39,533 bases of DNA from Lachnospiraceae bacterium (GTDB taxonomy: Bacteria; Bacillota; Clostridia; Lachnospirales; Lachnospiraceae), in assembly GCA_017437785.1 (NCBI GenBank), contig JAFRXH010000015.1, positions 1 to 39,533 on the forward strand, given 5' to 3'. Every line of letters begins with the position of its first letter. Position 1 is the first letter of the stretch. Below the pieces are notes generated by a model. The model made no database searches. It saw only the letters and a list, made by a program, of their open reading frames with translations, and was not told the DNA's origin. The position numbers were made by a program, and so were the translations under genes. Shown here in pieces: positions 84 to 27,881 of the stretch.

Positions 84-123
84 AACAGCCGGAATCCCTT
101 TAAAACAAGGCATTTCGGCTGTT
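84..123 (+). terminator. Hairpin downstream of the partial left-edge gene
   Basis: AACAGCC (84-90) pairs with the 3' arm GGCTGTT (117-123), and flanking bases extend the stem imperfectly around an A-rich loop. There is no T-run after it, so it is a weak rho-independent terminator candidate or a mobile-element end. Nothing else recognisable lies between 64 and 217. Confidence 0.35.
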
Positions 124-217: not shown

Positions 218-1702
218 TCAGGCGCTTAAGCGTATGGCTTCGTAGCGTTCACAGTTTATTATCTGTCTCATTGCTTCGACAGGCGTAAGTCCTATACAGG
301 AAAGCAGCTGCTTAAATGTTGACGCGGACTGACCGGAGCAGAGCTGCACGCCTTTTCTGCTGCTGTCCGCATGGAAGATATCATGGCGGCTGTTAACATT
401 CCAGAAGATTATATTGGGTATCTCGTAACCGGCACTGCGGTATCTGTCGCGCATCGTATCGTAAAATGTCCATTCACGATCGCTGCAGCAGTCTATCTCC
501 ATATCCGATATCACTATCAGGGACTTTACCATATCCTCTTTTGGAGTATTATTCTTAAGCGCAAGTTCGAGTACATTTTCAAATGCTGCCCTTAAGTCAG
601 TGTTCATTCCCCATTCGGATGTCACTATGGACAATAATTTCTGCATAAGTGTCTCGCCCTTTACTTTATGGATCTGAGACTCACCGCTGAAGGACATGAA
701 CAGGCCGTGATAGTCGCCGCGGTTATGCTCTGCAAAATACAGCGCCAGGCCAAGTGAGCTTGCCATGGGGCGGCCCATCATGGAACCTGATACATCGGCT
801 ATCACCAATGCATTGCAGCCTTCCTCAACATAGTCGGGAAGCGCTCGCCACTGTGCCTCCAATACGGCATTATCTTTTTCAGACAGATTACCTATCTTTA
901 AATTCCATGAATAAGAAAGGTACTTTTCCACTATGTCGTAAGGATACAGGGTATCCGCATTTATCTTTTCTTCTCCGCAGGCAGCGCGGTTTATATACTC
1001 GCTGAAACGCTCTTCATCATTACGGAAAAACGCATTACGATATATCATCATGGCGCGTGAAGGTACACTGCTGTAGCTTATCTCGCTCCAGCGGCCTGCG
1101 CTCATCAGCGCCTCAACGATACCTATATGCTTACGCATACGGTGTACTATACGTTTAAATTCGTATACGGAATATCCCAGTTTCTGCGCTGTAAGTATAC
1201 CCAGTTTACGGGTTTTCTCCGAGCTGGCGTCGGCAGTCTTTATCCACTTTGCAAGCAGGGATATGGCGTGTCCCTCTTCCATCATGCGCCTGTCTTCCTC
1301 GAACCGGGCTTTCATGGCCGCCCACATCTCTTCTTCGAGCTGTGTGCCTGTCAGCTCGTAGAGATCGTCGTAGCGGCCATAAACGCCTATCAGATCAAGA
1401 TTTGCACGCAGACTTTCAGGATGGTTCTGCGCCATGTAACGCAGCATTACCCTGAAGGTCCTGCGCTCACCAAGACCACCGCGGACATCGCGGCCATAGA
1501 ATGCCAGCTTTGTGGCAAAGAGCGCGTCTTCTTTATATGCATCGGCAAAAAGCCTCTCTATACGTGTTTCGTCTGCTTCGCGCAGCGCGCCTATGCTGCC
1601 GAAAAGATCCAGGCATGCATCCTGTGTCGTGTTAAGCGCTGCTGCGCCGTTTTCGGTTCGTGTAAAGCCTGCTGCTTTATTAAGTACTTCCGCAAAACTC
1701 AT
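218..1702 (-). CDS. DUF2828 family protein: helical repeat region plus von Willebrand A domain (TROVE/Ro60-like architecture)
   Basis: 494 aa, with a strong AAGGAGG (1712-1718) ahead of ATG 1702. The N-terminal ~290 residues are helical and carry family-typical stretches: RDVRGGLGERRTFR (71-84), GVYGRYDDLYEL (106-117), and a lysine/arginine-rich 180-192. A vWA domain follows with an intact metal-ion site: DVSGS at 303-307, T368 and D400 (VISDME). There is no signal peptide or membrane segment, so it is probably cytosolic. DUF2828 resembles TROVE proteins (Ro60, bacterial Rsr) in pairing an alpha-helical RNA-binding-type region with a C-terminal vWA domain. Its own function is not established, to my knowledge. 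It stands alone in its transcription unit, but its leader holds two tRNA-like RNA elements (1804-2014), which suggests that it works with them. Family call is from recognised motifs; RNA binding is inference. Confidence 0.85.
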   Translation of the reverse strand: MSFAEVLNKAAGFTRTENGAAALNTTQDACLDLFGSIGALREADETRIERLFADAYKEDALFATKLAFYGRDVRGGLGERRTFRVMLRYMAQNHPESLRANLDLIGVYGRYDDLYELTGTQLEEEMWAAMKARFEEDRRMMEEGHAISLLAKWIKTADASSEKTRKLGILTAQKLGYSVYEFKRIVHRMRKHIGIVEALMSAGRWSEISYSSVPSRAMMIYRNAFFRNDEERFSEYINRAACGEEKINADTLYPYDIVEKYLSYSWNLKIGNLSEKDNAVLEAQWRALPDYVEEGCNALVIADVSGSMMGRPMASSLGLALYFAEHNRGDYHGLFMSFSGESQIHKVKGETLMQKLLSIVTSEWGMNTDLRAAFENVLELALKNNTPKEDMVKSLIVISDMEIDCCSDREWTFYDTMRDRYRSAGYEIPNIIFWNVNSRHDIFHADSSRKGVQLCSGQSASTFKQLLSCIGLTPVEAMRQIINCERYEAIRLSA

Positions 1703-1725
1703 CTCTATGTTCCTCCTTAGATCCA

Positions 1726-1787
1726 GGACGCTTTTTGTTTGATCATTACCAATATCAATAAATCCACCCTTTTTGCTGATAGCGTCC
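1726..1787 (-). other. Inverted repeat in the leader of the DUF2828 gene
   Basis: On the minus strand GGACGCT (1787-1781) can pair with AGCGTCC (1732-1726), a 7-bp perfect stem closing a ~48-nt loop between the second tRNA-like element and the ribosome binding site. No T-run follows, so it is not a standard terminator. It could close or end a structured leader RNA. Confidence 0.4.
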
Positions 1788-1803
1788 CCATTGTATTACT
1801 CCA

Positions 1804-1899
1804 TGACACATCTTCCTTTATGCAGGATTCGAACCTGCTCTATCGCAGCCGTTTAGGCATACGATATTTATCCGTTGGAATAGTATGCTGTTTGTGTCA
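1804..1899 (-). ncRNA. tRNA-like element B (T-arm, no D-arm or anticodon arm)
   Basis: On the minus strand a perfect T-arm is present: stem GCAGG (1838-1834), loop TTCGAAT (1833-1827), stem CCTGC (1826-1822). The element is closed by a 7-bp stem, TGACACA (1899-1893) with TGTGTCA (1810-1804). Between them GCATAC pairs with GTATGC (about 1888-1857). No D-loop with GG is present, and the T-arm is separated from the closing stem by 11 nt, so this is not a decodable tRNA. It shares AACAGCA, AAATATCG and TATGsC landmarks with element A, which suggests duplication and divergence. A stand-alone RNA processed from the DUF2828 leader is inference. Confidence 0.5.
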
Positions 1900-1903
1900 C
1901 AAA

Positions 1904-2014
1904 TAGCAGGGGCCGGAATCGAACCGGCTACACCGAAGCCATACGCGATATTTGCTGTTAAGATCACTGTAATGATCTGTTTTTCTCGTGCTCTACCAAT
2001 TGAGCTACCCTGCA
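1904..2014 (-). ncRNA. tRNA-like element A (acceptor stem, D-arm and T-arm, but a 61-nt insert in place of the anticodon arm)
   Basis: Minus strand: acceptor GCAGGG (2013-2008) pairs fully with CCCTGC (1911-1906). T and A at 2007-2006 occupy the U8/A9 positions. The D-arm is GCTC-AATTGGTA-GAGC (2005-1990) with the usual GG. The T-arm is GCCGG-TTCGATT-CCGGC (1928-1912). Between D- and T-arms lie 61 nt (1989-1929) where a normal tRNA has about 23. They contain a perfect 6-bp hairpin AGATCA-TTACAG-TGATCT (1978-1961) and a GGCT...AGCC hairpin, but no 5-bp/7-nt anticodon arm. It also has no encoded CCA and a T:T mismatch at 1:72. It is either a degenerate tRNA or a tRNA-mimic RNA serving the adjacent DUF2828 protein. 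Confidence 0.6.
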
Positions 2015-2039
2015 TGTTCACAGGATAACAGAGACAGTG

Positions 2040-2067
2040 ATGATAATCATTTCAAAAAAGCTGCGAA
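2040..2067 (-). promoter_or_regulatory. Candidate promoter for the tRNA-like RNAs and DUF2828 gene
   Basis: A -35-like TTCGCA (2067-2062) is separated by 16 nt from a -10-like TATCAT (2045-2040). Transcription would start about 20 nt before element A. The match is only moderate. Confidence 0.3.
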
Positions 2068-2091: not shown

Positions 2092-4161
2092 TCATCCGGC
2101 AGTCAAACGTATGCTCTCACCGTCCCGCCCCAGGAATACGATCCGGCCGCCTTCCGGCATCGGCAGGATATCTGTCATGCCTTTCACATGGGTCGTATAG
2201 ACCACCTCGCCGAATTTGTTATATACATAAACCGCGCTGTGTTCAGGCATATCCGTGATCGCGATCTCTGCATTTGCCATTTCTTTTCCTATCTTAAACC
2301 ATGCCGGTGCATCAGAGACAAACGCGATCTCACTTAAGGAAGCATCAAAGTACGGTATGTTCTCTTCCGAAATAAACTCCAGACCGTTGCTTGTTACAAG
2401 CTTAAGTCCATCCTCATCTTCTTTCAGTGTACCATCCATCAGATCGCGGTTTCTGCTGGATGGTATATCCGTAAATGCTGCCGCATGAGTAGCGTCCGTG
2501 ATCTTTAACAGACGTGTTCCCAGCCCGCTGTTAATAACAAATACATATCCCGGAAACTCAGCCGCCGGCACCACTTCCAGAAACGCCATATCATAAGCGC
2601 TTGATGAAGGTCTTTCACTGCAGATGAGAAATTCCCTGCCGCTTACCTTCTGCACAAAAGCCTCTGCTTCCGCACACGCTGGATCCCCGTCCATCTTTTC
2701 ACCTATGTATAAATGCTGTGCCTGCTCTCCGATCCCGGGACACCGTGTATTCCGATCGGCCGCCAGCAGGATCTTTCCGTCAGCATCCGTTTGAAAGGAA
2801 ATATACATCGGATTTAAAGAAAACCGCATTTGATCCGTCCCACCGTCTTCCACCTCATAAGCAAGATCTGCAAACCTGCCGTCTTCCGTCAGTGCAAAAT
2901 CCTGACAGGTGGTTTTATACGGCCCTATACTTTCCACATGCATATACTTATGTTCCGGAAAAGTGATCTTGTTGATCACGGCTCCCTCCATCCCCGAAAC
3001 CGCATACGCACCGGCCAGCGCATCATATTCTTCCGGGATATCACAAATTCCTGCTGCTGCCGGCCACGAAGGATCCGTAAGCTGTATCCCCTCTTCCTCC
3101 AGGCACACATCCAGGATTGCCTCTGCCATAAGTCCGTTCAAGGTACTGGTGCCGCCGTTTGTAAGCACGGATACACTGATCTGTTCCTCCGGCGCAACCA
3201 GGAGAAAAGCGTGATTCATCAAAGCATCACCGCCTTTTCCCAGCACCTTGATACCGGCGTCCCCATACCGCTTCACTGATACAAAGTCCCAGCCAAGGCC
3301 GTTTTCATCCATATAGATATCCTTATCCGACCAGGGCGCTGCCATCGCTGCTTTGGAAGCTTCCGAGAGGATGCTCTTATTTCCCGCAAAAAAGGCAGAG
3401 CCGAATCTAGCCGTATCGGAAGCCGTTGCATAGATGCCTCCGGCCCCGATCACCTGTGTGCCGCCCTGCTCATAAAGAACATGTCCTGCGGTATACGCCG
3501 GTGCGAGATCCTTCATCGAAAGATATGTCACACCGGATCCCGTGCTGTCACCACCTGTAGGCTCCATCAGATACTTTTTAACATATTCCGTATAGTCCAT
3601 GCCGGATACGCGCTGTGTAATGAGCGCCAGCAGATCAAATCCGTCGTTGCAGTAAGAAGCATATTCCCCGGGATCCGCTTTCAACCGTTGTCCGGCCAGG
3701 TGCTCCGGCAGCTGATCCAGCAGATCCTCGTTTTGATCTTCATACAGATACGCTCCGAAATAAGTTGATCCCATCAGCCCGGACGTGTGATCCATCAGCA
3801 TTCGTACCGTGATATCCTTATACCTCGGATCCTCCATGCGAAACTCCGGAATATAGTCCGTCACCGGCGCATCCAGCACCACCTTTCCTTCCTCCGCCAG
3901 ACGCATTACCGCAGCAGTCGAATAGATCTTGCTGACCGATCCCACGCAATAGACATACTCGGTATCCCTGTTCGCCGCTTCCCAGCCGTTTTCACGCTGT
4001 TCTTCAAGACCTTCCTGCCCGTTACCCGATCCTTCCGCAAAAGCCTTTCCGCTGTTTCCGGAAAGGGCGTTAAAGCCCAGGATGCCTGCAATGCCTAATG
4101 CAGCTGCGCAGCCGAAAATACTGCTGCCGATTATTGTTTTTCTATCAGTTTTCTTTTTCAT
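2092..4161 (-). CDS. Serine beta-lactamase-fold hydrolase (class C / PBP-related), membrane-anchored or secreted
   Basis: 689 aa from ATG 4161, chosen because GGAGAAGG lies directly upstream. An in-frame TTG at 4179 lacks a properly spaced site. An N-terminal hydrophobic segment (about 9-33) acts as a signal or anchor. The catalytic SVSK tetrad (S75, K78) and a YCN second motif (GEYASYCNDG) are present, with a GKGGD stretch where the third motif (KTG/HxG) is expected. About 320 further residues follow the catalytic domain. Family members are extracytoplasmic esterases, D-amino peptidases or carboxypeptidases; the substrate cannot be told. The segment between signal and SVSK is only ~40 residues, shorter than usual, as if the first helix and strands had been lost. 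It lies last in the ABC/two-component cluster, 72 nt after the permease, and may be co-transcribed. Confidence 0.8.
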   Translation of the reverse strand: MKKKTDRKTIIGSSIFGCAAALGIAGILGFNALSGNSGKAFAEGSGNGQEGLEEQRENGWEAANRDTEYVYCVGSVSKIYSTAAVMRLAEEGKVVLDAPVTDYIPEFRMEDPRYKDITVRMLMDHTSGLMGSTYFGAYLYEDQNEDLLDQLPEHLAGQRLKADPGEYASYCNDGFDLLALITQRVSGMDYTEYVKKYLMEPTGGDSTGSGVTYLSMKDLAPAYTAGHVLYEQGGTQVIGAGGIYATASDTARFGSAFFAGNKSILSEASKAAMAAPWSDKDIYMDENGLGWDFVSVKRYGDAGIKVLGKGGDALMNHAFLLVAPEEQISVSVLTNGGTSTLNGLMAEAILDVCLEEEGIQLTDPSWPAAAGICDIPEEYDALAGAYAVSGMEGAVINKITFPEHKYMHVESIGPYKTTCQDFALTEDGRFADLAYEVEDGGTDQMRFSLNPMYISFQTDADGKILLAADRNTRCPGIGEQAQHLYIGEKMDGDPACAEAEAFVQKVSGREFLICSERPSSSAYDMAFLEVVPAAEFPGYVFVINSGLGTRLLKITDATHAAAFTDIPSSRNRDLMDGTLKEDEDGLKLVTSNGLEFISEENIPYFDASLSEIAFVSDAPAWFKIGKEMANAEIAITDMPEHSAVYVYNKFGEVVYTTHVKGMTDILPMPEGGRIVFLGRDGESIRLTAG

Positions 4162-4177
4162 TTCCTTCTCCTTTATC

Positions 4178-4206
4178 AAGATTCCTCACATTCGTTCGGA
4201 ATGACA
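4178..4206 (+). repeat. REP-like dispersed repeat, diverged copy
   Basis: AAGATTCC...GGAATGACA, a diverged copy of the repeat at 30056-30152. It lies between the FtsX permease and the beta-lactamase-fold gene. ATTCC and GGAAT can pair. Confidence 0.5.
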
Positions 4207-4233
4207 TGGTTGCTTGATCCTTTTACGATCACT

Positions 4234-6753
4234 TTATTCCGTCATCAGCTCTGTAACCGATATCTTCCGTATCCTTCCCGCGCTCAGATAGGCTACAGCA
4301 AAGCAGAAGATCAGCATGAGGATATCTGTAATAACAACCGTCGAAACATTGACTTTGGAAAATGCCGCAAAGAGCAGCCCCCAGAACAGATCATTGATCC
4401 ACAGTCCGCATACCGTTGCGATAGCAGTACCGGCCAGTATCACCGGCATGTATTTCAGCGCCAGCTGCATCATCAGGTCCTTTGATGAATATCCCAGCCC
4501 TTTCATGATACCCAGCGCATGCCGCTGTCTTCTCACATCATTCGAAGTGATGATCGTGATCAGTACCGCGACGATCCCCGAAACAAGGATCAATGCGTAA
4601 AAGCAGAAGTTTTTTGTCGTCTCCGCAATAGGCACCATCTGTGTCTTAATGATACCTTCGTAGGAGAAGCATTCTTTTATCACAAAGTTCCTGCTGTTTC
4701 CCGTGATCAGTTCATCCCCGATCTGCACGGCATAATCAACATCCGTAACACCATATTGATTCAGCATTGCAGCTATCTTTTCCTCCGCAGCTGCGCGGAT
4801 CCTCTCATCCCGGCTTTGTCCGGACAATCCGCCTTCCGCCGCCTGCTTTGCCGTGCCTCCGAAATGCGCATCGATGGCAGCCTGAAGCTTTGATATGCTT
4901 ACACCTTCCGCCGGATATATCTGCACAACGTTTTCAGCCGCAAAGATGTTTAAGCGTTTATATCCGTCATTGGTCAAATACACAACCGTTCCTCCATTCT
5001 GTATGGTTCCCACGATGCCGCTTACGATATATTTTTTTTCCAGTCCGTTATACTCCAGCACGATACTGTCACCGACTTTAATGTTTTCCTCCCTGCTCCT
5101 TCTCAGCCCTATCATCACTTCGTTATCATACTGCGGCAGCCTTCCCTCATAAGGGTGTACGTTTTCCGAATCCGCATAATCCCCAAAGCTGATCACCTCT
5201 GCCGAATCTGAAGATCCCTTGACGGAAACATGTTCTCCGTGAAAGCCCTTGATCGCCTTTCTTACTTCCGGCAGAGTCAGCAGTTCCTGCCTGAATGCGT
5301 CGATATCTGTATCACTTAAGGTGTATACCATTAACACTTCCCAATCCGTTCCCATCATTGCAGCAAATCCATAAGGACCGTTACTGGAAAAATCATAGGT
5401 AAGCGCTCCGAACATGATCGCCGTTCCTGCCGTAATAATGCAGATCAGGATCCCCGCGGAAGCCTTCAGATTGCCAAAGAAGCCCTTCATCGCCAGTCCC
5501 AGATTGATATTCCAATGCATCTTATCCAGTGGCAGGATATTTTTACCGAAATGATGGGTTCTGATCCCTTTCCGGAGTGCCACCACCGGGGGATATTTTT
5601 TCACCCGCCTTGCCTTAAGAAGCGCAAACACAGCCACCAAAAACAATACAGCAGCTACGGCAATCACGGCCCCGCCCATCCCGCTGCCTCCGGCTACGCT
5701 GCGTCCCAGCATAACGCTTATACCGGTATTCACAAACGGTGTGATCAGACAGGCGATCACCGCTCCCAGTACTGAGCCAAGCCCGCCCGCGATCACATAC
5801 TCATACAGATAGGATAAGGATATCTCTGCCGAGCGGTATCCCAATGCTTCCAGCACTCCGATCTGCTGCATCTGATCCTCAATGTCGCCGCTGATCTTAT
5901 GACGTATCATAAACAGTGACGCGATCAGAGTGACCGCAGATATCCCGATGATCATCATCATAAAGATCTCCAGGAAATTCGTCTCATTCATCTTTTCCCA
6001 CCTGTAACAATTAAAATACGTTGTAAAACTCAGATTCTCCGATGCCACCTCATTACAGTCTTCCAGATACCGGTCAAAATCGATCTCTTCCCCGTCAAAA
6101 AACAACCCGACACACTCATAATCCTTAGACGAATCAAAAAGCATGGCAAAGAGCGCGTAATCTTCATCTGACAGGATCACTTTATAGAAATACCCGTCAT
6201 TCGTCATAAGTCCTGCTTCAAAAAAACCAACAATGGTAAAGGGATACTCTTTCCCGTTTTTAAGGATCAAGAAATCATCACCGGCAACATACCCCTTCGT
6301 GATCCGAAATCCTTCCGGAAGCCAGATGGGATGTTCGACCCCCGCGATCTCTTCCTCCGGCAGCTGCTCCAGTTTGTGAAAGGCTTCCATCTTGCGTTCG
6401 CTTTTTTCCGTTGCAAACATCAGATTATACGCGACGGTATCGCCGTCTTTGCCAAGTACATCAACCATGTTGCTATAGATCAGGCGTCCTTCGCTTACTT
6501 TTTCTATTCCGTAATCCTTAAGAAGGATGTCTGCAAAAGCATTGCGGTATTTATCGACTTTGAATAATACAGTCTGCCTCACACAGCCGGATCTTTCATA
6601 ACTCTCATCAAAAGCCGTATCGATCTTCTTTTGATTGATCAGGACAACGGACAGCATCAGCACCGTAACTAAGGTCATAAAGATTATGCCCAGGACTTCA
6701 CGCCTGTTCTTTTTCAGATTAAACAGAGATAATCGAAGTATCTTGTTATTCAT
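4234..6753 (-). CDS. ABC transporter permease with two FtsX domains
   Basis: 839 aa. A first membrane segment lies near 18-40, followed by an extracytoplasmic domain of ~210 residues. A cluster of three membrane segments (about 265-385) is the first FtsX domain. A second TM-extracytoplasmic-TM unit ends in another three-segment FtsX domain (about 725-835). This duplicated layout matches MacB/LolE/BceB-like mechanotransmission permeases rather than a channel importer. It starts 3 nt after the ATPase stop, so the two are translationally coupled. With the two-component genes upstream this resembles antimicrobial-peptide or lipoprotein-type exporters controlled by their own sensor. The substrate is unknown. 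Confidence 0.88.
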   Translation of the reverse strand: MNNKILRLSLFNLKKNRREVLGIIFMTLVTVLMLSVVLINQKKIDTAFDESYERSGCVRQTVLFKVDKYRNAFADILLKDYGIEKVSEGRLIYSNMVDVLGKDGDTVAYNLMFATEKSERKMEAFHKLEQLPEEEIAGVEHPIWLPEGFRITKGYVAGDDFLILKNGKEYPFTIVGFFEAGLMTNDGYFYKVILSDEDYALFAMLFDSSKDYECVGLFFDGEEIDFDRYLEDCNEVASENLSFTTYFNCYRWEKMNETNFLEIFMMMIIGISAVTLIASLFMIRHKISGDIEDQMQQIGVLEALGYRSAEISLSYLYEYVIAGGLGSVLGAVIACLITPFVNTGISVMLGRSVAGGSGMGGAVIAVAAVLFLVAVFALLKARRVKKYPPVVALRKGIRTHHFGKNILPLDKMHWNINLGLAMKGFFGNLKASAGILICIITAGTAIMFGALTYDFSSNGPYGFAAMMGTDWEVLMVYTLSDTDIDAFRQELLTLPEVRKAIKGFHGEHVSVKGSSDSAEVISFGDYADSENVHPYEGRLPQYDNEVMIGLRRSREENIKVGDSIVLEYNGLEKKYIVSGIVGTIQNGGTVVYLTNDGYKRLNIFAAENVVQIYPAEGVSISKLQAAIDAHFGGTAKQAAEGGLSGQSRDERIRAAAEEKIAAMLNQYGVTDVDYAVQIGDELITGNSRNFVIKECFSYEGIIKTQMVPIAETTKNFCFYALILVSGIVAVLITIITSNDVRRQRHALGIMKGLGYSSKDLMMQLALKYMPVILAGTAIATVCGLWINDLFWGLLFAAFSKVNVSTVVITDILMLIFCFAVAYLSAGRIRKISVTELMTE

Positions 6754-6756
6754 AGA

Positions 6757-7518
6757 CTACCACCCCATTTCTTCCAGGAATGCCGTGAGAGAAGCGCGTC
6801 TGTCCTTTTCATCATCTTCTCCAAATACCGGCATCCTGTGATCACCGACCACACCACCGTCACGAAGATACAATACTCTTGTTCCGCGCAGCGCAGTTTT
6901 AAGATCATGTGTTACCAATACGATGGACTGTCCGTTTTTGTGGACTTCGGTAAAGATATCCAGCACATCCTTTCCCGAAGCACTGTTGAGCTGTCCTGTA
7001 GGTTCATCGGCAAATAATATCTTCGGATCATTGATGATAGCCCTCACGATACCGACACGCTGCGCTTCACCACCGGATAGCTGGTTGGGATATTTCTTCC
7101 ACAATCCTTCCGCGATGCCGACTTTCGTCAGCAGATCTTTTGCTTTTTTTACCAGTTCCGGTGAATTCTTCTGCACGATGAGTGCTCCGGTCAGAACATT
7201 ATCCAGCACGGTCTGATTATCCAGAAGATAAACGCTCTGGAATACAAAGCCGCAATTGCCGCGACGGAATACCGCCAGCTCATCGTTGGAATAATCCTGG
7301 ATCTCCTTCTCCCCAAAACGGATCTTTCCCATGCTGGGTTTATCCATTCCGGACAGCGCATACAAAAGAGTAGACTTTCCGGATCCGGATGCTCCCATGA
7401 TCACGGTAAAGTCACCTTCTATGATCTCCAGATCAAGATTCTTGATAACGTGCTGCAACGCGCCGCCGTTTGAAAATGATTTACAGAGTTTTTCTGTTTT
7501 TAAAATAGAAGAAGCCAT
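6757..7518 (-). CDS. ABC transporter ATP-binding protein (MacB/LolD-type)
   Basis: 253 aa. Walker A GASGSGKST (42-50), signature LSGGEAQRVG, Walker B ILFADEPTG and a switch histidine (VLVTHD) are all intact, so it should be an active ATPase. It belongs to the short LolD/MacB-type ATPases that partner FtsX permeases, and the next gene is such a permease. The C-terminus carries a 30-residue charged tail. It is first in its transcription unit: a -10 TATAAT and direct repeats that look like a response-regulator site lie upstream (7563-7626). Confidence 0.92.
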   Translation of the reverse strand: MASSILKTEKLCKSFSNGGALQHVIKNLDLEIIEGDFTVIMGASGSGKSTLLYALSGMDKPSMGKIRFGEKEIQDYSNDELAVFRRGNCGFVFQSVYLLDNQTVLDNVLTGALIVQKNSPELVKKAKDLLTKVGIAEGLWKKYPNQLSGGEAQRVGIVRAIINDPKILFADEPTGQLNSASGKDVLDIFTEVHKNGQSIVLVTHDLKTALRGTRVLYLRDGGVVGDHRMPVFGEDDEKDRRASLTAFLEEMGW

Positions 7519-7562
7519 ATATAATACATCCTTTCGTTCATGTTCACCATGTTACGATCTGT

Positions 7563-7568
7563 ATTATA
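7563..7568 (-). promoter_or_regulatory. -10 element of the ABC ATPase/permease promoter
   Basis: TATAAT on the minus strand, about 45 nt upstream of the ATPase start codon. The -35 position with a 17-nt spacer reads AAGAAC, a poor match. This is what one expects of a promoter that needs an activator bound at the direct repeats just upstream. Confidence 0.6.
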
Positions 7569-7608
7569 TATGGCTTTTGTTATATGTTCTTTGTTAAACT
7601 ATTATCGA

Positions 7609-7626
7609 ATTCTTATCAGATTCTTA
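7609..7626 (-). promoter_or_regulatory. Direct-repeat operator for an OmpR-type response regulator
   Basis: TAAGAAT occurs twice on the minus strand (7626-7620 and 7615-7609) with an exact 11-bp period, one helical turn, as OmpR/PhoB dimers require. It sits just upstream of the weak -35 of the ABC promoter and overlaps the stop codon of the kinase gene. The cognate regulator is most simply the neighbouring 8916-9668 protein (inference). Confidence 0.55.
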
Positions 7627-8919
7627 ACTGAGGGGGATCATCAAAGTGATCTTAAAGCCCTTGTTTTCATTGGAAGGCACCAGCTCCCCGTCCATTTTTT
7701 CCATCAGGGTGCTTGCGATATAAAGTCCAAGTCCGCTGCCTTCTTCCTTACTTTCCGCCCATTTCTTTCCGCGATAGAATTTGCCCAGGATCATTCCCAG
7801 TTCCTCTTCCGGCACTCCCGGTCCGTGATCGCGTATGCTCATTTCAAGATATTCTTCCACTAAGCGGTAACTCACCTCGATCGCGGTGCCTGCATATTTA
7901 TAGGAATTGGAAATGATATTGCCGATCACCTGATTCATGCGCTTTGGATCTATATGTATCAGCACTTCCGGCACATCCTGCGCCTGCACCAGTCCCTTAT
8001 CATCATATTTATTTACGATATCTGTAAGGATAAGTGAGCTCTCATCCGTACAGTTCACCTTAAATTCCCCCAGTTCTTCCAGTGTTGCGGAAAAAAGGTC
8101 ACTTACCAGCACATCTATCTGGTCTGCCTTTTTATAAATATTGGCTATCTTTTCCTTATGATCTTCCATACCATCCGAAGCATCAAACTTTGCAGTCAGT
8201 AATTCGCATGTCACTTTGATCCCCGTAATGGGCGTTTTCAGATCATGGCTTAAGGATGCCACCAGTTCTTTTTCACGCTTTTGCAGATCAGCTTCACGCA
8301 GGCGGGATGAGCGGAGTTCTTCACGCATGATATCAAAGCTTTCGGAAAATGCCCCGAACATATTATTCCGGTCCATAGAAAGCGGTTCGTCAAGTTTTCC
8401 CTCTGCAACCCTTCCGGCAAAATCATTAAGCTCCCTGAAGGGACGATAGATCCGCTTTGTTACATACATTCCAAATACACCTGCGGTTATTAAAAGCGCC
8501 ACACCGGTAACACACAGTCCTATTATGATCCTTATACGCAGCTGCAAGGTCTGTCCCATGCCGTCATCCGGAATGATCACATAACCGGATGTTTGTCCGT
8601 TCACAAAGATATACCGGTACGGATATCCTTTTTTGATCGCCGTTTCTACAGAAAGTCTGCCACTCTCTACAGGCACGCTGCTGAACAATACCTCTCCGAT
8701 CGTATCTGTTACGACCAGATCAACTCCGTACTGTGCATTGCTGATACTGCCGGTATCTGTGAGATCTGCTTCGACCTTATGCGCTATCTCATTAAGTTTC
8801 AGCACCAGCTCCTCTCTGCCGTAATCTTCTCTGACATTCAAGGTAAGAATGGCAAAGATCAATACCGCAAGAAAATATAACGCACCGCATGCGATTACCA
8901 CATTTCTGTATCTTTTCAT
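7624..8919 (-). CDS. Sensor histidine kinase (HisKA/HATPase, HAMP)
   Basis: 431 aa. TM1 8-27, a ~100-residue extracytoplasmic sensor, TM2 131-151, HAMP about 153-205, then an H-box SLSHDLKTP with H225 as phosphoacceptor. The N-box (QVIGNIISNSYKYA) and G-boxes (DHGPG, GSGLGLYIA) are intact. It overlaps the response regulator by 4 nt (ATGA), so the pair is coupled. It lies directly upstream of the ABC transporter that it probably controls. The sensor domain is larger than in intramembrane BceS-type kinases, so it may sense its ligand directly. Confidence 0.92.
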   Translation of the reverse strand: MKRYRNVVIACGALYFLAVLIFAILTLNVREDYGREELVLKLNEIAHKVEADLTDTGSISNAQYGVDLVVTDTIGEVLFSSVPVESGRLSVETAIKKGYPYRYIFVNGQTSGYVIIPDDGMGQTLQLRIRIIIGLCVTGVALLITAGVFGMYVTKRIYRPFRELNDFAGRVAEGKLDEPLSMDRNNMFGAFSESFDIMREELRSSRLREADLQKREKELVASLSHDLKTPITGIKVTCELLTAKFDASDGMEDHKEKIANIYKKADQIDVLVSDLFSATLEELGEFKVNCTDESSLILTDIVNKYDDKGLVQAQDVPEVLIHIDPKRMNQVIGNIISNSYKYAGTAIEVSYRLVEEYLEMSIRDHGPGVPEEELGMILGKFYRGKKWAESKEEGSGLGLYIASTLMEKMDGELVPSNENKGFKITLMIPLS

Positions 8920-9668
8920 AATGTACGTTCAAGTATATAGCCTACGCCCCATATAGTTTTTATAAGGCGCGGGGCCTTGGGATCTTCCTCTGTCTTTTCG
9001 CGCAGATGTCGTATATGCACAGCCAGTGTGCCTTCACCGATAAATTCATCATCCCAGACTTCTTTTAAAAGTTCATCTTTGGTTACCACCCTGCCCGAAT
9101 GATCATAAAGATACTTAAGCAACTTATACTCCATCGCCTTTAAGCCGATCTCTTCCGAACCTTTGCGAAGCTTATGTTTAGCGGTATCCATGATGATAGT
9201 TTCCGTAAGGGCGATCTGCGTGTCATCCACCCCCTTATTATCTGAATGAGCCACTTTTATATTATTGGCAGCTTCCGCCTGCAGCAGGGCCTCTTTCGCC
9301 TTTTCATAGCGCTCCAGTATCGCTTTGACTTTTGCCAGCAGGATGCTTAAGGTAAAAGGCTTTTTTATATAATCGTCGCCGCCGATATTAAGAGCTATCA
9401 AAACATCATCATCACTGCTGCGCGCGCTGATGAAAAGTATAGGCATATCATAGTTTTCCCGTACCCTCTTGCACAGATCAAAACCTGTGCGTTCACCCAG
9501 ATTGATATCCAGCAGCATAAGTGAGACCAGATTTTTCTCAAGGAAAGCGACCGCTTCATCATATCCCGTCACGTATGCGCTCTTAACATCAAACATATTA
9601 AAGTATTCCGCAGTTGACTGGGCGATCACTTCGTCGTCATCAATGATCAGTACTTTGTATTGTTCCAT
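8916..9668 (-). CDS. OmpR/PhoB-family response regulator
   Basis: 250 aa. The receiver domain has acidic residues D10-D12, phospho-acceptor D54 (MLLDINLG) and the conserved lysine in IKKPF. A winged-helix DNA-binding domain occupies the last ~95 residues (VTKDELLKEVWD, GTLAVHIRHLREK). A linker of ~45 residues between domains is longer than usual. A TATAAT at 9729-9724 upstream is a likely -10. The likely target is the ABC operon promoter carrying TAAGAAT repeats at 7609-7626. Confidence 0.93.
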   Translation of the reverse strand: MEQYKVLIIDDDEVIAQSTAEYFNMFDVKSAYVTGYDEAVAFLEKNLVSLMLLDINLGERTGFDLCKRVRENYDMPILFISARSSDDDVLIALNIGGDDYIKKPFTLSILLAKVKAILERYEKAKEALLQAEAANNIKVAHSDNKGVDDTQIALTETIIMDTAKHKLRKGSEEIGLKAMEYKLLKYLYDHSGRVVTKDELLKEVWDDEFIGEGTLAVHIRHLREKTEEDPKAPRLIKTIWGVGYILERTL

Positions 9669-24194: not shown

Positions 24195-25659
24195 CCCCGT
24201 TTTCTGTTTCGGTAAGCGGCTCTGCCCCGCCGGTGACAACAGCCTCATTGATTATCACACGTTTAAGCCCCTTTATTCCCGGAGCTTTATACATTATCCC
24301 TCGCAGCACCTTACCCATGATACTTTGAAGTGCCCTGGCTCCTACAGGAGTCTGTATCGCTTCCTGCGCTATGGCATTAAGCGCATCTTCGGTAAATATG
24401 AGCTCTGCCCCCGAAGACAGCATAAGCTCCCTTTCATATCTTTTGACCAGACTGTCTTCCGGCTCCGTAAGTATGCGTATCATATCGTCGAGCTTAAGCT
24501 TTTCAAGGACCGCTATGCCGGACACACGCCCTGCCAGCTCCCTCTTCATACCGTATTTCATCAATACTTCGTGGTTGATATTCTCCCTTATATATTCAAG
24601 GTTCATATCTTTTTCGAGTACGGCCTTAAAGCCTATACTTCCCGGTATATTGCTCTTCTCCCGCTTATCGGTCCTTATATATTCATCTATTCCCTGAAAA
24701 GCTCCGGCCAGCACAAACAGTATCCTTGATGTATCAAACAAAAGCGGCTGTCCGTCGCATTTAATCTCCACTTCGCTGCCTTCCAGCATGGTGAGCATCT
24801 GGGACTGCACATCATCATGCACATTGACTCCTCTTTCACTCACTGCAGGCAGCAGCAGTTTATCAAATTCATCCATAAAGATTATGCCCTTTTCGGCCAG
24901 ACTCTTTTTCCTGCCTGATTCCTCATACAGTTCAAGGAGTATATCTTCTTTATGTCTGCCCCTGTACTGACTGGCCCCTAAGGAGGAGACATCCGTAAAT
25001 ACCATGGGATAATCCGTGATATCCCGGATCCTTCGCATTATCTCGGTCTTGCCGCAGCCCGACGGTCCTATAAGCAACACCACATCAGGCGCAAAGCGCT
25101 CCCCGGGGTGTCTTACCCTCTTACCATGCCCGTAAACAGCCGTACTTATAGCTATCTTTGCATCATCCTGCCCTATCACAAACCTGTCCAGATAATCTTT
25201 TATCTCCCTGGGCCGCAGGTTTTCCTTAACACTCTCGCGTTCTTTGGTAAAAAACTTGTTTTTAAGCCTTAAGATGCGCCCGAGTACTATACGTTCGCGC
25301 TCATTTGATGTTTTCTCGACCGCAGCCTTTAACGTATCCGCTTCAAGAAAATCCAGTATATAAGAAGCCCTGTCACCGAAGATCTCTACGGAATAATCCA
25401 GATCATCCTCGAGTTTATCGAGTATATTGAGCAGTGACCTGGTCTCTGCAGGAATGCGTTTATCATCCCTCACCCTGAAAAAGAGCATCTCAAGATAACC
25501 CAGGGCGTCCACATCCGCATTCTTTATATCATCGGATACCAGCATCAGCCTTGAGAGTATATATTCGGATACCCCTACCGTCTCCTGTTCGGTCAGTCTG
25601 GCACGTGACATCTGAAGACCGGTTCTTTTTTTATCCATTTCCTTGAAAATATTGATCAT
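24172..25659 (-). CDS. ClpX-like AAA+ unfoldase lacking the zinc-binding domain (paralogue 2)
   Basis: 495 aa. The N-terminal ~145 residues are helical, charged, without cysteines and unrelated to the ClpX zinc domain. The core starts near REIKDYLDRFVIGQDDAK. Walker A GPSGCGKT (198-205), pore loop QYRG (231-234), Walker B IIFMDEFDK (259-267), IGF loop (342-344), arginine finger AGR (376-378) and sensor 2 GARALQ (440-445). The ATPase is predicted active and ClpP-binding. First gene of the four-gene operon. The start is uncertain: ATG 25659 lies only ~10 nt after the -10, which would give an almost leaderless mRNA. ATG 25638 (MDKKRTG) follows AAGGA too closely. Confidence 0.83.
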   Translation of the reverse strand: MINIFKEMDKKRTGLQMSRARLTEQETVGVSEYILSRLMLVSDDIKNADVDALGYLEMLFFRVRDDKRIPAETRSLLNILDKLEDDLDYSVEIFGDRASYILDFLEADTLKAAVEKTSNERERIVLGRILRLKNKFFTKERESVKENLRPREIKDYLDRFVIGQDDAKIAISTAVYGHGKRVRHPGERFAPDVVLLIGPSGCGKTEIMRRIRDITDYPMVFTDVSSLGASQYRGRHKEDILLELYEESGRKKSLAEKGIIFMDEFDKLLLPAVSERGVNVHDDVQSQMLTMLEGSEVEIKCDGQPLLFDTSRILFVLAGAFQGIDEYIRTDKREKSNIPGSIGFKAVLEKDMNLEYIRENINHEVLMKYGMKRELAGRVSGIAVLEKLKLDDMIRILTEPEDSLVKRYERELMLSSGAELIFTEDALNAIAQEAIQTPVGARALQSIMGKVLRGIMYKAPGIKGLKRVIINEAVVTGGAEPLTETENGDEKSIYL

Positions 25660-25757: not shown

Positions 25758-27881
25758 TCAGATCGATACGAATATCTCCCTGCCTATACGTTTTTCCTGA
25801 AGTTTTCCCCTGCTCTGAACGATGATCGTATGATCCTTATACCTGAGCGCGAACAATACCGGAAGCTTAAGGCAGAGCCTGTCGGTCTCACACCGTTCTT
25901 TAAGCTTCGAATTGATATGTATCATAAACGCCTTGCCCTTCTCCGAATGTATACTCAGCTTGCACAGGCGTTTCCTGCTGCCGTCGGGCCTTATGGTATC
26001 AACCTCTGCCATCGCAAAAATATAGACAAGTCCGGCGTACACAGCCAGTATGCTGCCTATCCCTCCGACAGTCACAGCTCCGGCCTTTGCCACCCGGCGC
26101 AATATGGGGATAGGCAGGGTCTGCGGTTTAGCGCCCGGATATTCACCCTTAACATTACCGTACAGCTCTTCCTGTGCTCTGCTGCCCTCATCCTTAAGCG
26201 CCATCGCAGATCCGCCCTGCTTTGTTTCATCTTCCGCAGCCGGCTCTTCTGCTGCAGCATACTCACTGCCGTCATTACCCTGATACGGCTCTGACGTATC
26301 CTCTGCATCCGTTTCCGGCAGGGCATCGTCTGTACTGACCGGACTGTCTGCAGCGAACGCGTTCCTTTTTCTCCTGCTGCCGCTGCCTCTCCCGCCTGCT
26401 TCGTTACCGCTTACAGAATTGCCGCTTATGCTGTTTTCGCTGCTGCTGCCGGGATCATTTTCGCTCACGCTGCCTCCGCCCGGCCCATCATCCCCAGGTC
26501 CTTCCCCGGGGCCGTCTTCTTCTCCGTCTCCCGTTTCTTCGCCCGGTCCGCTTTCCCCGCCTTCTTCCTCTTCTTCAGCGTTATCATTTCCACCTCCGCT
26601 TTCCGAACCTTTGCCGGGACCGTTCTCTTCCTCTCCGTCGTCTTTTCTTCCGGGACCGTCCTCTTCTCCGGGGCCGTCCTCTTCCCCAGGGCCGTCTTCT
26701 TCTCCCGGGCCGTCCTCTTCCCCGGGGCCGTCCTCTTCTCCCGGGCCGTCTTCTTCTCCCGGGCCGTCTTCTTCTCCCGGGCCGTCTTCTTCTCCGGGAC
26801 CGTCTTCCTCTCCGGGCGGAGTCCCGGCCGGCTCCTTCTCATGGCTCTTAAGCTCCAGCACGGGCTCATCTACATCCCAATGCCATATTCCCGCAGATAT
26901 CCCGTTCTCATCAAATACCATATCCTCCCCAAGATAATATCCGTCAAAGACCATATCTTCAGCAAGCTTTGGTACTTCCACATCGGGATAAGGCTCGTCA
27001 TATGTTACCTGCATACTCTCATCCGGCCTGCCGTCTCCGTCGGAGTCCGTCCCGTAGTGAATTGTATATCTGTGTGCCTCCCACTTAGCCGTAAGTATCA
27101 GTTCCGAATCATCAAGCACTTCTGCGCCTCTGCCGACAGGCATACCATCCGGATCATAGTATTGATCATCATACCTGTAAAATCCAAGGAAATCATATCC
27201 TGTTTTAACCGGAGGATCTGCTCTTTTAAGTCTGTCCCCATATTCAACTTCCATCTCAAAGAGCAGATCTTCACCATCCATGAACTTTACAACATGCACT
27301 GTTGTCCGCTCCGTGTAGGAGATCTTCTTTTCGATCCATTCATCCAGTTTTTTATCATGGTATCTCAATGTGGCGGTATAGGTTCCCCTGCCCGGAAGCG
27401 GCAGTATCTCTTCATCCCCCGAACCATACTCCCCTGCCCTGTCCCACGAGAGAGTATGATCGCCGACGATCTCCGATACTATCAGCACGCCTGCGGCAAG
27501 AGAAACCCTTTTGCCTTCCTGCCTTCTGTCGATATAGAGATCACCTAAATAATCCTCTTTGCAGGTACGTTCCCTCACGGTGTTTCCTTCATGAATATCA
27601 GGATGTTCCCCGCGCCATTCCTGCATACATTTCTGACATTGAAAAATCTGACCGGTCCCGTCATCACGCACAAAGACCACTTCCCCACCGCATGGGTAGA
27701 AAACATCTTCATAGCATCCGCTGTTACGGTTACCGTGCTCATGATAAAGCGATACACTTACCGTTCTTTCCGGAAGTGCCGGGTCGGCGGCCCCGGCAGG
27801 CATCGGACAGATCATGCCCTGCATAAGCATGCAAACGATAAGCACAAGATTGCAGATCTTTTTGAACTTGGCTTTCTTCAC
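25758..27881 (-). CDS. Secreted membrane-anchored surface protein with InlB-type repeat and PGEEDG tandem repeats
   Basis: 707 aa from GTG 27881 with AAGGAGG 7 nt upstream. Signal peptide ~1-31 (MPAGAA). Residues 45-107 hold a cysteine cluster (C56, C64, C82-x2-C85, C107) after a YHEHGN stretch. About 195-270 is a Listeria-Bacteroides (InlB B-type) repeat with the TGYDFLGFY and ILTAKWEA landmarks. A DSDGDGRPDE stretch (279-288) looks calcium-binding. A disordered acidic region (about 355-520) opens with nine PGEEDG units (356-409). A membrane segment near 600-623 is followed by a basic ~84-residue tail, rather than an LPxTG signal. Likely adhesin or stalked envelope protein. It has its own promoter and lies between zinc-finger ClpX and the ClpX-like operon. 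Confidence 0.8.
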   Translation of the reverse strand: MKKAKFKKICNLVLIVCMLMQGMICPMPAGAADPALPERTVSVSLYHEHGNRNSGCYEDVFYPCGGEVVFVRDDGTGQIFQCQKCMQEWRGEHPDIHEGNTVRERTCKEDYLGDLYIDRRQEGKRVSLAAGVLIVSEIVGDHTLSWDRAGEYGSGDEEILPLPGRGTYTATLRYHDKKLDEWIEKKISYTERTTVHVVKFMDGEDLLFEMEVEYGDRLKRADPPVKTGYDFLGFYRYDDQYYDPDGMPVGRGAEVLDDSELILTAKWEAHRYTIHYGTDSDGDGRPDESMQVTYDEPYPDVEVPKLAEDMVFDGYYLGEDMVFDENGISAGIWHWDVDEPVLELKSHEKEPAGTPPGEEDGPGEEDGPGEEDGPGEEDGPGEEDGPGEEDGPGEEDGPGEEDGPGEEDGPGRKDDGEEENGPGKGSESGGGNDNAEEEEEGGESGPGEETGDGEEDGPGEGPGDDGPGGGSVSENDPGSSSENSISGNSVSGNEAGGRGSGSRRKRNAFAADSPVSTDDALPETDAEDTSEPYQGNDGSEYAAAEEPAAEDETKQGGSAMALKDEGSRAQEELYGNVKGEYPGAKPQTLPIPILRRVAKAGAVTVGGIGSILAVYAGLVYIFAMAEVDTIRPDGSRKRLCKLSIHSEKGKAFMIHINSKLKERCETDRLCLKLPVLFALRYKDHTIIVQSRGKLQEKRIGREIFVSI
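26652..26813 (-). repeat. Nine tandem 18-bp repeats encoding PGEEDG
   Basis: Nine consecutive 18-bp units within the surface protein gene, differing only at synonymous third positions and flanked by degenerate units (PGRKDD, PGKGSE). Copy-number change would keep the frame and only alter the length of an acidic stalk. Confidence 0.92.

Follow-up and report, generated by a model that had tools for sequence, protein, structure and literature searches.

The 39,533-nucleotide window analysed here is one entire contig (JAFRXH010000015.1, NCBI GenBank assembly GCA_017437785.1) of a Lachnospiraceae bacterium. On its minus strand, at positions 218..1702, it carries a gene for a 494 aa protein with the Pfam domains DUF2828 and DUF7788, which we annotate as a putative Ro60-like RNA-binding protein. 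Upstream of this gene, on the same strand, lie three RNA elements, A, B and C, built on a common module, or handle, that recurs beside DUF2828 genes of other bacteria and of phages. Sequence comparison across these loci establishes that the handle exists in two permutations, is accompanied by tRNA-derived heads, is linked to DUF2828 in bacterial as well as phage loci, and at a minority of loci has the RNA ligase RtcB nearby. The association of a new RNA family with a dedicated Ro60-like particle is strongly supported at this level, and that DUF2828 forms a ribonucleoprotein of its own appears highly probable.

Three RNA elements upstream of the DUF2828 gene

The module common to the three elements consists of a 6-bp helix, one strand of which is followed by NNACAGCAA and the other usually by UG. 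Element A (1904..2014; this and all features of the window given below are on the minus strand unless stated otherwise) is a tRNA-like RNA with a T-arm (1912..1928, from a T-arm search and the Rfam tRNA alignment), a D-arm (1990..2005, from the Rfam tRNA alignment and our alignment A1) and six standard acceptor pairs, all of which the first-pass annotation of this DNA had recognised. Its anticodon loop is replaced by the module (1952..1978, from a pairing search, alignment and covariation), i.e., the hairpin AGATCA-ttacag-TGATCT followed by TAACAGCAA (TA and then ACAGCAA), and the first module strand is followed by UU instead of UG. When filters were relaxed, the Rfam tRNA model (RF00005) aligned over the full length of A at 41.3 bits against a gathering threshold of 29, with a 49-nt stretch of A in the position of the anticodon arm. 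The score for membership of the tRNA family is thus passed, but A has no anticodon loop, and neither ARAGORN nor Rfam at default settings found a match anywhere in the window. The weak matches to YrlA and to plastid families that relaxed Rfam returned in the window are without meaning.

Elements B and C are supported by the module search. In B (1802..1899), a permuted module closes the ends of the element (TGACAC-AA-ACAGCA ... GTGTCA-TG) and a perfect T-arm lies inside (1822..1838, from the T-arm search, with a weak partial match to our covariance model R1). C (1724..1787) is a minimal permuted element (GGACGC-TA-TCAGCAA ... GCGTCC-TG) with TCAGCAA in place of NNACAGCAA. Generally, then, the module helix of A-type elements is a hairpin at the anticodon-loop position of a cloverleaf. 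In B- and C-type elements the module is circularly permuted: the ACAGCAA strand comes first, at the 5' end, and the UG strand last, at the 3' end, and the helix would thus join the ends of the RNA. Folding z-scores were -2.15 for A, -3.32 for B (trimmed by 4 nt at its 3' end in these runs) and -2.27 for C (1 nt too long).

The first-pass annotation had proposed two tandem tRNA-like elements. Both are real and share the module, as well as the landmark AACAGCA that it had pointed out, but C had been missed, and B has a different architecture, with TGACAC and GTGTCA pairing between its ends. Its further landmarks, AAATATCG and TATGsC, are indeed common to A and B; no such conserved block exists among the 41 aligned tRNA-like elements, and we set them aside as local to A and B.

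Covariation and specificity of the tRNA-like form

Alignment A1 holds these 41 tRNA-like elements; of 53 candidates, we manually discarded 13 as ordinary tRNAs, wrong acceptor choices or element B, and one of the 13 was re-cut and restored. Since selection had used acceptor and T-arm pairing and the start pattern of the D-arm, the module helix and the anticodon-like stem are the fairer tests. The script did not select on the module helix, but the manual removal was made with knowledge of the module, and the anticodon-like stem was placed after inspection of A1. Over the whole cloverleaf, 93.1% of cells are paired, both partners have changed in 22 of 25 pairs, and covariation scores 0.680 vs. 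0.176 for shuffled and at most 0.158 for slid alignments. The module helix alone is 95.4% paired, with a covariation of 0.794 (0.221 shuffled, at most 0.209 slid), and the anticodon-like stem of three pairs is 68.5% paired, with 0.343 (0.123 shuffled, at most 0.174 slid). For these last two helices, the number of double-change pairs and the number of pair types were not above those of shuffles.

Because the 3-pair stem covaries across relatives, the tRNA-like elements seem to have kept a short anticodon stem whose loop the module has taken over. The earlier statement that A lacks an anticodon arm therefore holds for the loop, which the module hairpin has replaced, and not for the stem. A module at the insert position, inside a short covarying stem, is also what one would expect of real tRNAs with a removable insert in the anticodon loop. 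Nevertheless, excising the module from A leaves no proper anticodon loop (judged by eye), and the handle also occurs alone or enclosing anticodon hairpins or T-arms, which makes this explanation very improbable.

Covariance model R1, built from the 41 sequences, scores A at 98.5 bits, A being one of those sequences. It was run on 299 genomes of the same family, with 12 candidates scored per genome and with stricter filters that may miss weak matches. Every one of the 299 genomes has R1 matches, because ordinary tRNAs match too; the 73-nt matches, which we took as tRNAs, reach at most 64.1 bits among the matches listed. Matches of at least 75 bits occur in 11 genomes, and 10 of the 11 carry DUF2828, compared with 30 of 299 overall. 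These 10 include three or more training genomes: the training sequences include the window (genome G000) and loci L046 and L022, so that at least G000, G118 and G260 match by construction.

Spread of the module among DUF2828 relatives

The module was first recognised by reading the upstream DNA of 16 relatives beside that of the window. A search upstream of the window gene and of 59 relatives yielded 95 module pairings (with double counting of a few ACAGCAA sites); 20 dinucleotide shuffles averaged 0.8, and the opposite strand upstream had 1. The element finders were revised several times, and each count given here carries its own control where one was run. The revised search covered 54 loci, i.e., the relatives with at least 300 nt of upstream DNA (5 of the 59 had less and were excluded), and returned 105 module sites; shuffles gave 0.7, with a maximum of 3. 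Taking any of three finders, the module is present upstream in 48 of the 54, the tRNA-like form in 32 and one or the other in 49. Together with the strong covariation, this supports the proposal of the first-pass annotation that DUF2828 has tRNA-mimic RNAs of its own, and the conserved tRNA-like structure that it suggested looking for upstream of other DUF2828 genes is present. A further set of 29 DUF2828 loci from the 299 family genomes has the module in 21 by the strict finder, a count without a matching shuffle, and a looser finder gave 60 sites against 4-15 in shuffles. The two sets partly overlap (L046/L071 and L022/L066 appear to be shared).

We saw the module across Lachnospiraceae, other Clostridia, an Anaerolineae bin and varied phages, in two permutations. 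This bears on the possibility, named by the first-pass annotation itself, that the elements are remnants of a degenerate tRNA array, or tRNA pseudogenes, beside an unrelated gene. Their cloverleaf features are clearly tRNA-derived, and several phage copies lie within or beside tRNA arrays. A degenerate array, however, leaves unexplained why the same non-tRNA module, with its permuted forms, recurs across Clostridia, the Anaerolineae bin and phages, and why compensatory change keeps its pairing; we regard its probability as close to negligible.

tRNA-derived heads

What the handle accompanies varies. A T-arm was found in 17 permuted elements, and five of these enclose, in order, a T-arm, an acceptor strand, a short loop, a second acceptor strand and a D-arm. 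On their sequence and with D-arms identified by eye, these five heads read as circularly permuted tRNA bodies. They come from phages FADO, Halena, TP1 and CCS1 and from an uncultured Clostridia locus (L059); eight rows were examined, of which one duplicate and two poor ones were dropped. The smaller permuted elements often enclose one hairpin. A 5-bp hairpin with a 7-nt loop is present in 78 of 158 loops, against 28.5 in shuffles (maximum 38), and hairpins with 5-, 10- and 11-nt loops are not raised over shuffles. Once T-arms are excluded, loops with the anticodon frame (pyrimidine 32, U33 and A37) number 26 against 1.6 shuffled (maximum 5), and these 26 present 16 different anticodon triplets. 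The counts refer to 158 unique loops among 166, some of which are probably chance sites, e.g., one inside a CKA15 gene.

In 14 hairpins chosen by a common stem, two of them apparently from one locus, positions 32, 37 and 38 are constant and position 33 is T in 11. Within the anticodon, position 34 is G in 7, T in 4 and C in 3, position 35 is T in 12 and G in 2, and position 36 is T in 13. With position 34 the most variable and 35 and 36 nearly fixed, the changing part is chiefly the first anticodon letter. At one relative's locus (L044:2878-2983), a permuted element encloses a tRNA-Phe(AAA) called by ARAGORN, with the anticodon loop CTAAAAA; several ordinary tRNAs lie nearby.

The DUF2828 protein and its relation to Ro60

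The first-pass annotation of 218..1702 as a DUF2828/von Willebrand factor A (vWA) gene was borne out. The window protein matches Pfam DUF2828 (E 4.4e-44) and DUF7788 (E 1.4e-42), a weak vWA match overlaps the DUF7788 region, and PHROG 850 ('RNA-binding protein') is matched at E 5.1e-128. The vWA-type domain (DUF7788, residues 297-468, positions 299..814, from Pfam and alignment) contains D303, S305, G306, S307 and M308 (numbering of the window protein), which are invariant among 36 aligned relatives and which we take to be a metal site. NCBIfam gave no match to the window protein, and a profile search of Protein Data Bank sequences with it found nothing significant (best E 0.029).

Both DUF2828 and the TROVE proteins had been said to follow the same domain logic, a helical RNA-binding part combined with a vWA domain. 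A profile comparison (DUF2828 from 36 sequences, TROVE from 5) gave E 3.6e-7 with a probability of 93% over 388 columns, and this match comes from the vWA half: the C-terminal halves alone gave E 1.3e-7 in hhalign, against 0.36-0.38 for reversed controls. The position of the vWA domain at the C-terminus of the window protein is as in TROVE and Ro60, and sub-threshold matches to vWA_Ro60 were found in the proteins of three loci (L060, L070 and L135). The window protein has no match to TROVE (PF05731) at a maximum E of 10 (HMMER, filters on). Since the vWA halves match, the helical halves are only weakly alike and there is no TROVE hit, the window protein is, by its sequence, best called Ro60-like and not a member of TROVE. 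A TROVE gene was found in 0 of the 299 family genomes and a TROVE match in 7 of 348 genomes of a phylum sample.

On the RNA side, Y RNAs have a protein-binding helix that closes their ends, with tRNA parts inside, and the permuted DUF2828 elements may follow the same plan. They do have a helix that joins their presumed ends, although protein binding there and the true RNA ends are, for the DUF2828 elements, our inference. The tRNA-like domain that characterises YrlA is present in the DUF2828-linked RNAs. The YrlA handle, however, differs from the ACAGCAA/UG handle, and the window's RNAs score 13.5 bits against the YrlA model (RF02553; E 6.8, gathering threshold 69), which is not a match; at the gathering threshold YrlA had no match in 20 bacterial loci or 14 phage regions.

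Phage and plasmid loci

A protein search of 50,697 phage records found DUF2828 relatives in 681 (a figure that counts RefSeq and GenBank copies separately), 678 of them with at least 80% coverage. Several mycobacteriophage records name the relative a 'Ro-like RNA binding protein', and all seven phage proteins examined match DUF2828 and DUF7788; this phage family, PHROG 850, is the same protein family as that of the window protein. We scanned 15 regions (14 phage, 1 plasmid), allowing UG or AG after the second module strand; the gene strand has 34 module sites, whereas shuffles average 2.6. Modules are present in 15 of 18 phage and plasmid regions (L129, CKA15, K491 and AsFcp_2 counted in), in several of them as a single one. 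The related pairs L127/L130, L128/L142, L132/L141 and L139/L150 make up 8 of the 18, so that the independent number is nearer 14. In the annotated phage regions, no element is labelled as such and the annotations name the protein only; the exception is Synechococcus phage B23, where a feature annotated tRNA-Undet holds the tRNA-like form, with ACTGCAA.

Listeria phage CKA15 has three modules directly before its gene CKA15_055 (25,289-25,551), behind a promoter-like TTGACA-17-TATCAT sequence (read by eye), and CKA15_055 lies within DNA 96.7% identical to a region of phage P100 whose protein matches DUF2828. A 2025 study of CKA15 proposed the abundant unannotated non-coding RNAs near CKA15_055 as Y RNAs, because HHpred ties CKA15_055 to Rsr (PMC12282133). 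The first-pass remark that no DUF2828-associated RNA had been published was therefore nearly right, the exception being this suggestion of Y RNAs near an Rsr-like gene. The same study detected the CKA15_055 protein in purified particles, with the caution that some such detections may not be genuine (PMC12282133). Three transcribed non-coding regions are mentioned there, and the coordinates we found belong to one of them, which is free of modules; the passages on the putative Y RNAs give no structure, motif or family for them (PMC12282133). The locus of those RNAs has a DUF2828-type gene. We also asked whether the most abundant RNA of CKA15 might be one of our elements; its region has no module, which does not support the idea.

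Position of the elements relative to the gene

If the elements were cis-acting leaders only, DUF2828 would bind the handle in its own mRNA and stop translation, and the tRNA parts would be there for RNase P and RNase Z to process the leader. Among 28 measurable loci (L012 and L053 being apparently one and the same), 16 have their last permuted element ending 2-37 nt ahead of the start codon. In the window, element C ends just before a Shine-Dalgarno-like AAGGAGG (1712..1718, read from the sequence), which follows 5 nt past its end. In Vibrio phages VH7D (L139:3923-3965) and K491 (L150:1940-1980), the module helix covers the DUF2828 start codon (located by eye in VH7D), a hint from the sequence at self-regulation, specifically self-repression, of DUF2828 in these two phages.

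In contrast, elements lie 3' of the gene in Mycobacterium phage Halena, Escherichia phage TP1 and Staphylococcus phage CoN_Ph11. Genome G118 has two elements directly before its DUF2828 gene and further ones ~7.5 kb upstream and ~1.8 kb past the gene end, beyond two other open reading frames (ORFs); given these distant copies, not all elements are leaders of the DUF2828 gene. Arrays of elements and varied anticodon loops would also be superfluous for a leader. A leader role and nothing else is accordingly unlikely in our view, although in some hosts the gene-proximal element probably does feed back on DUF2828 translation as well.

RtcB and other neighbours

Among 49 neighbouring proteins, in which a conserved operon partner was sought, RtcB is the only family matched by more than two (5 of 49); these figures cover the 25 most-matched of 71 families. 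A translated search placed RtcB near 15 of 88 DUF2828 loci, within up to 3 kb on each side (1.5 kb for loci of the family genome set); some loci have it upstream of the gene, others downstream. It lies 1.3 kb after the DUF2828 gene in Listeria phages P100 and CKA15, and other RNA ligases are annotated near the gene in P100, 4_4572 and XbC2. Where it occurs, the RtcB link is shared with bacterial Rsr (TROVE, PF05731) and its YrlA and YrlB RNAs, as are a vWA-containing protein and tRNA-mimic RNAs in the locus, and in Salmonella these genes form an rsr-yrlBA-rtcBA operon (PMC7790460). The DUF2828 RNAs differ in their ACAGCAA/UG handle and in their non-permuted cloverleaf and single anticodon-like hairpin forms.

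Further features of the window

Upstream of A, a conserved block, TTCGCAGCTTTTTTGAAATGATT ... TATCCT (2022..2067), is a possible promoter region of A, as judged from relatives and, for the promoter reading, by eye. A TTCGCA-T-run block like the one before A also occurs upstream in the loci of 7 of the 59 relatives. Its TTCGCAG-N-TTTTTTGAAATGAT form stands at a constant distance before a TAT-rich box in several relatives and 22 nt after TTGAAA (by eye); this spacing is not that of an ordinary sigma-70 promoter, and the block could be an operator. On the 3' side of the gene, an inverted repeat read from the sequence (84..123) may be a terminator, and a convergent reading frame on the plus strand has its tail end at 63. 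The next genes on the minus strand (2092-9668) encode a beta-lactamase-family protein, an FtsX/MacB-type permease, an ABC ATPase, a histidine kinase and a response regulator; they look like an ordinary transporter with two-component control, unrelated to the DUF2828 locus.

Weighing a proposed tRNA-directed particle

We somewhat favour, on sequence grounds, the reading that DUF2828 is the protein of a Ro60/Y-RNA-like particle with a tRNA-directed function. The upstream RNAs would be its partners, as Y RNAs are of Ro60 (Rsr). The constant handle (the 6-bp helix with NNACAGCAA on the 3' side of one strand and UG on that of the other) would be the grip of DUF2828, and the variable head would copy part of a tRNA: a cloverleaf in A, a T-arm in B and, in relatives, either a permuted tRNA or just one anticodon stem-loop. 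Such heads may bring in tRNA-acting enzymes, anticodon nucleases first of all, gate them or keep them occupied by competition, and the particle would thereby protect, repair or sample tRNAs, serving repair of tRNA damage or, in phages, evasion of defences that cut tRNAs.

Decoying of anticodon nucleases is the most specific version of this reading. In it, what the handle presents would be cloverleaf bodies, T-arms and lone anticodon stem-loops; the last of these keep their loop frame (C32, mostly U33, A37 and A38), and their anticodon letters, chiefly the first, vary between relatives. Phages would deploy such decoys against host immunity and bacteria against toxins, in many cases with RtcB. 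A role as decoy alone we hold to be possible, at slightly less than an even chance, and the wider idea, in which swappable tRNA decoys on a fixed handle would protect the tRNA pool generally from anticodon nucleases, is more tentative still. The tRNA-like domain of YrlA has itself been suggested as a possible competitive inhibitor of an anticodon nuclease (PMC7790460).

A different function would follow if the RNA were a gate or tether of the Y-RNA type, as in Deinococcus, linking DUF2828 to an exonuclease such as PNPase for the decay of structured RNA; tRNA mimicry would then aid docking or stability only. The ends-closing handle of the permuted elements fits such a tether, as does the overall plan, which is the same as that of Rsr, Y RNA and PNPase (PMC7790460). 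PNPase, however, is not among the 25 most-matched families of the neighbouring proteins (an unlinked tether gene would be invisible in this comparison), and decay leaves the specific anticodon loops unexplained. We see the tether as rather improbable, if a more serious contender than a pure leader.

Several observations weigh against a dedicated, tRNA-directed DUF2828 particle. Five of the 54 relatives (L006, L007, L008, L010 and L043) have no recognised element upstream, the RNAs of the first four of which may be located elsewhere or lost, and 8 of the 29 loci of the family genome set fail the strict finder. Phages XbC2, SNUABM_19 and AsFcp_2 have no recognised module, and neither does the most abundant non-coding region of CKA15 (26,236-26,727; L142:2167-2658). 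Chance modules do arise: the first module search found 7 inside DUF2828 genes (both strands), and the phage scan found 5 on the opposite strand of the 15 phage and plasmid regions. No R1 match of at least 75 bits exists in 20 of the 30 DUF2828 genomes, and one genome, G131, has an element but no DUF2828 match. Among the heads, window element C lacks a clear anticodon-like loop, and loops of 6, 4, 9 and 8 nt are raised as well (43 vs. 28.3, 41 vs. 30.4, 38 vs. 25.7 and 35 vs. 26.4), each just over the shuffle maximum. The N-terminal, helical halves of DUF2828 and TROVE are not significantly similar (hhalign E 0.006, probability 6%), though they are collinear over 80 columns and score better than reversed controls (0.26-0.5; cross-half controls 0.034-0.45); the support for the shared domain logic proposed at first therefore comes from the vWA part. 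Finally, the window's genome has no RtcB match, and RtcB is for this reason not essential.

The G131 element (G131:C13:42090-42205, L121:6091-6206) is a full tRNA-like element with a similar TTCGCA-T-run block upstream, and it precedes a reading frame that by eye we would name isochorismatase-like; one element was found in the 12 kb examined.

Known systems and significance

Our searches of open-licence PubMed Central turned up no paper that, by its title or the start of its abstract, deals with an RNA family of this kind, and the papers found for DUF2828 or DUF7788 are, by the same parts, on other matters. Overexpression of the Ro-like protein of mycobacteriophage LeBron is toxic to the host (PMC13148394). 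ROT/TROVE proteins of a few jumbo phages have been presented as forming, together with a tRNA-like partner, an RNP platform that repairs RNA (PMC7824862); DUF2828 is not named there, and the passages on these proteins do not describe the RNAs reported here. Phage tRNAs that evade tRNA-cutting defences (PMC10264068, PMC11555353) resemble our decoy reading as a tRNA-based counter-defence; those are tRNAs, whereas the DUF2828 elements are partial tRNA copies on a shared handle.

Ro60 particles occur in animals and in some bacteria. Besides Ro60, DUF2828 would be a second, apparently widespread protein family with an apparent RNA family of its own, and its RNAs would display separate parts of tRNA, isolated anticodon arms included, on one handle. 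This would provide a domain of unknown function with a candidate function and suggest what the unannotated RNAs next to phage tRNA arrays are likely to be. For the role of tRNA mimicry in bacterial Y RNAs, the suggestion of nuclease inhibition would become directly testable, nuclease by loop.

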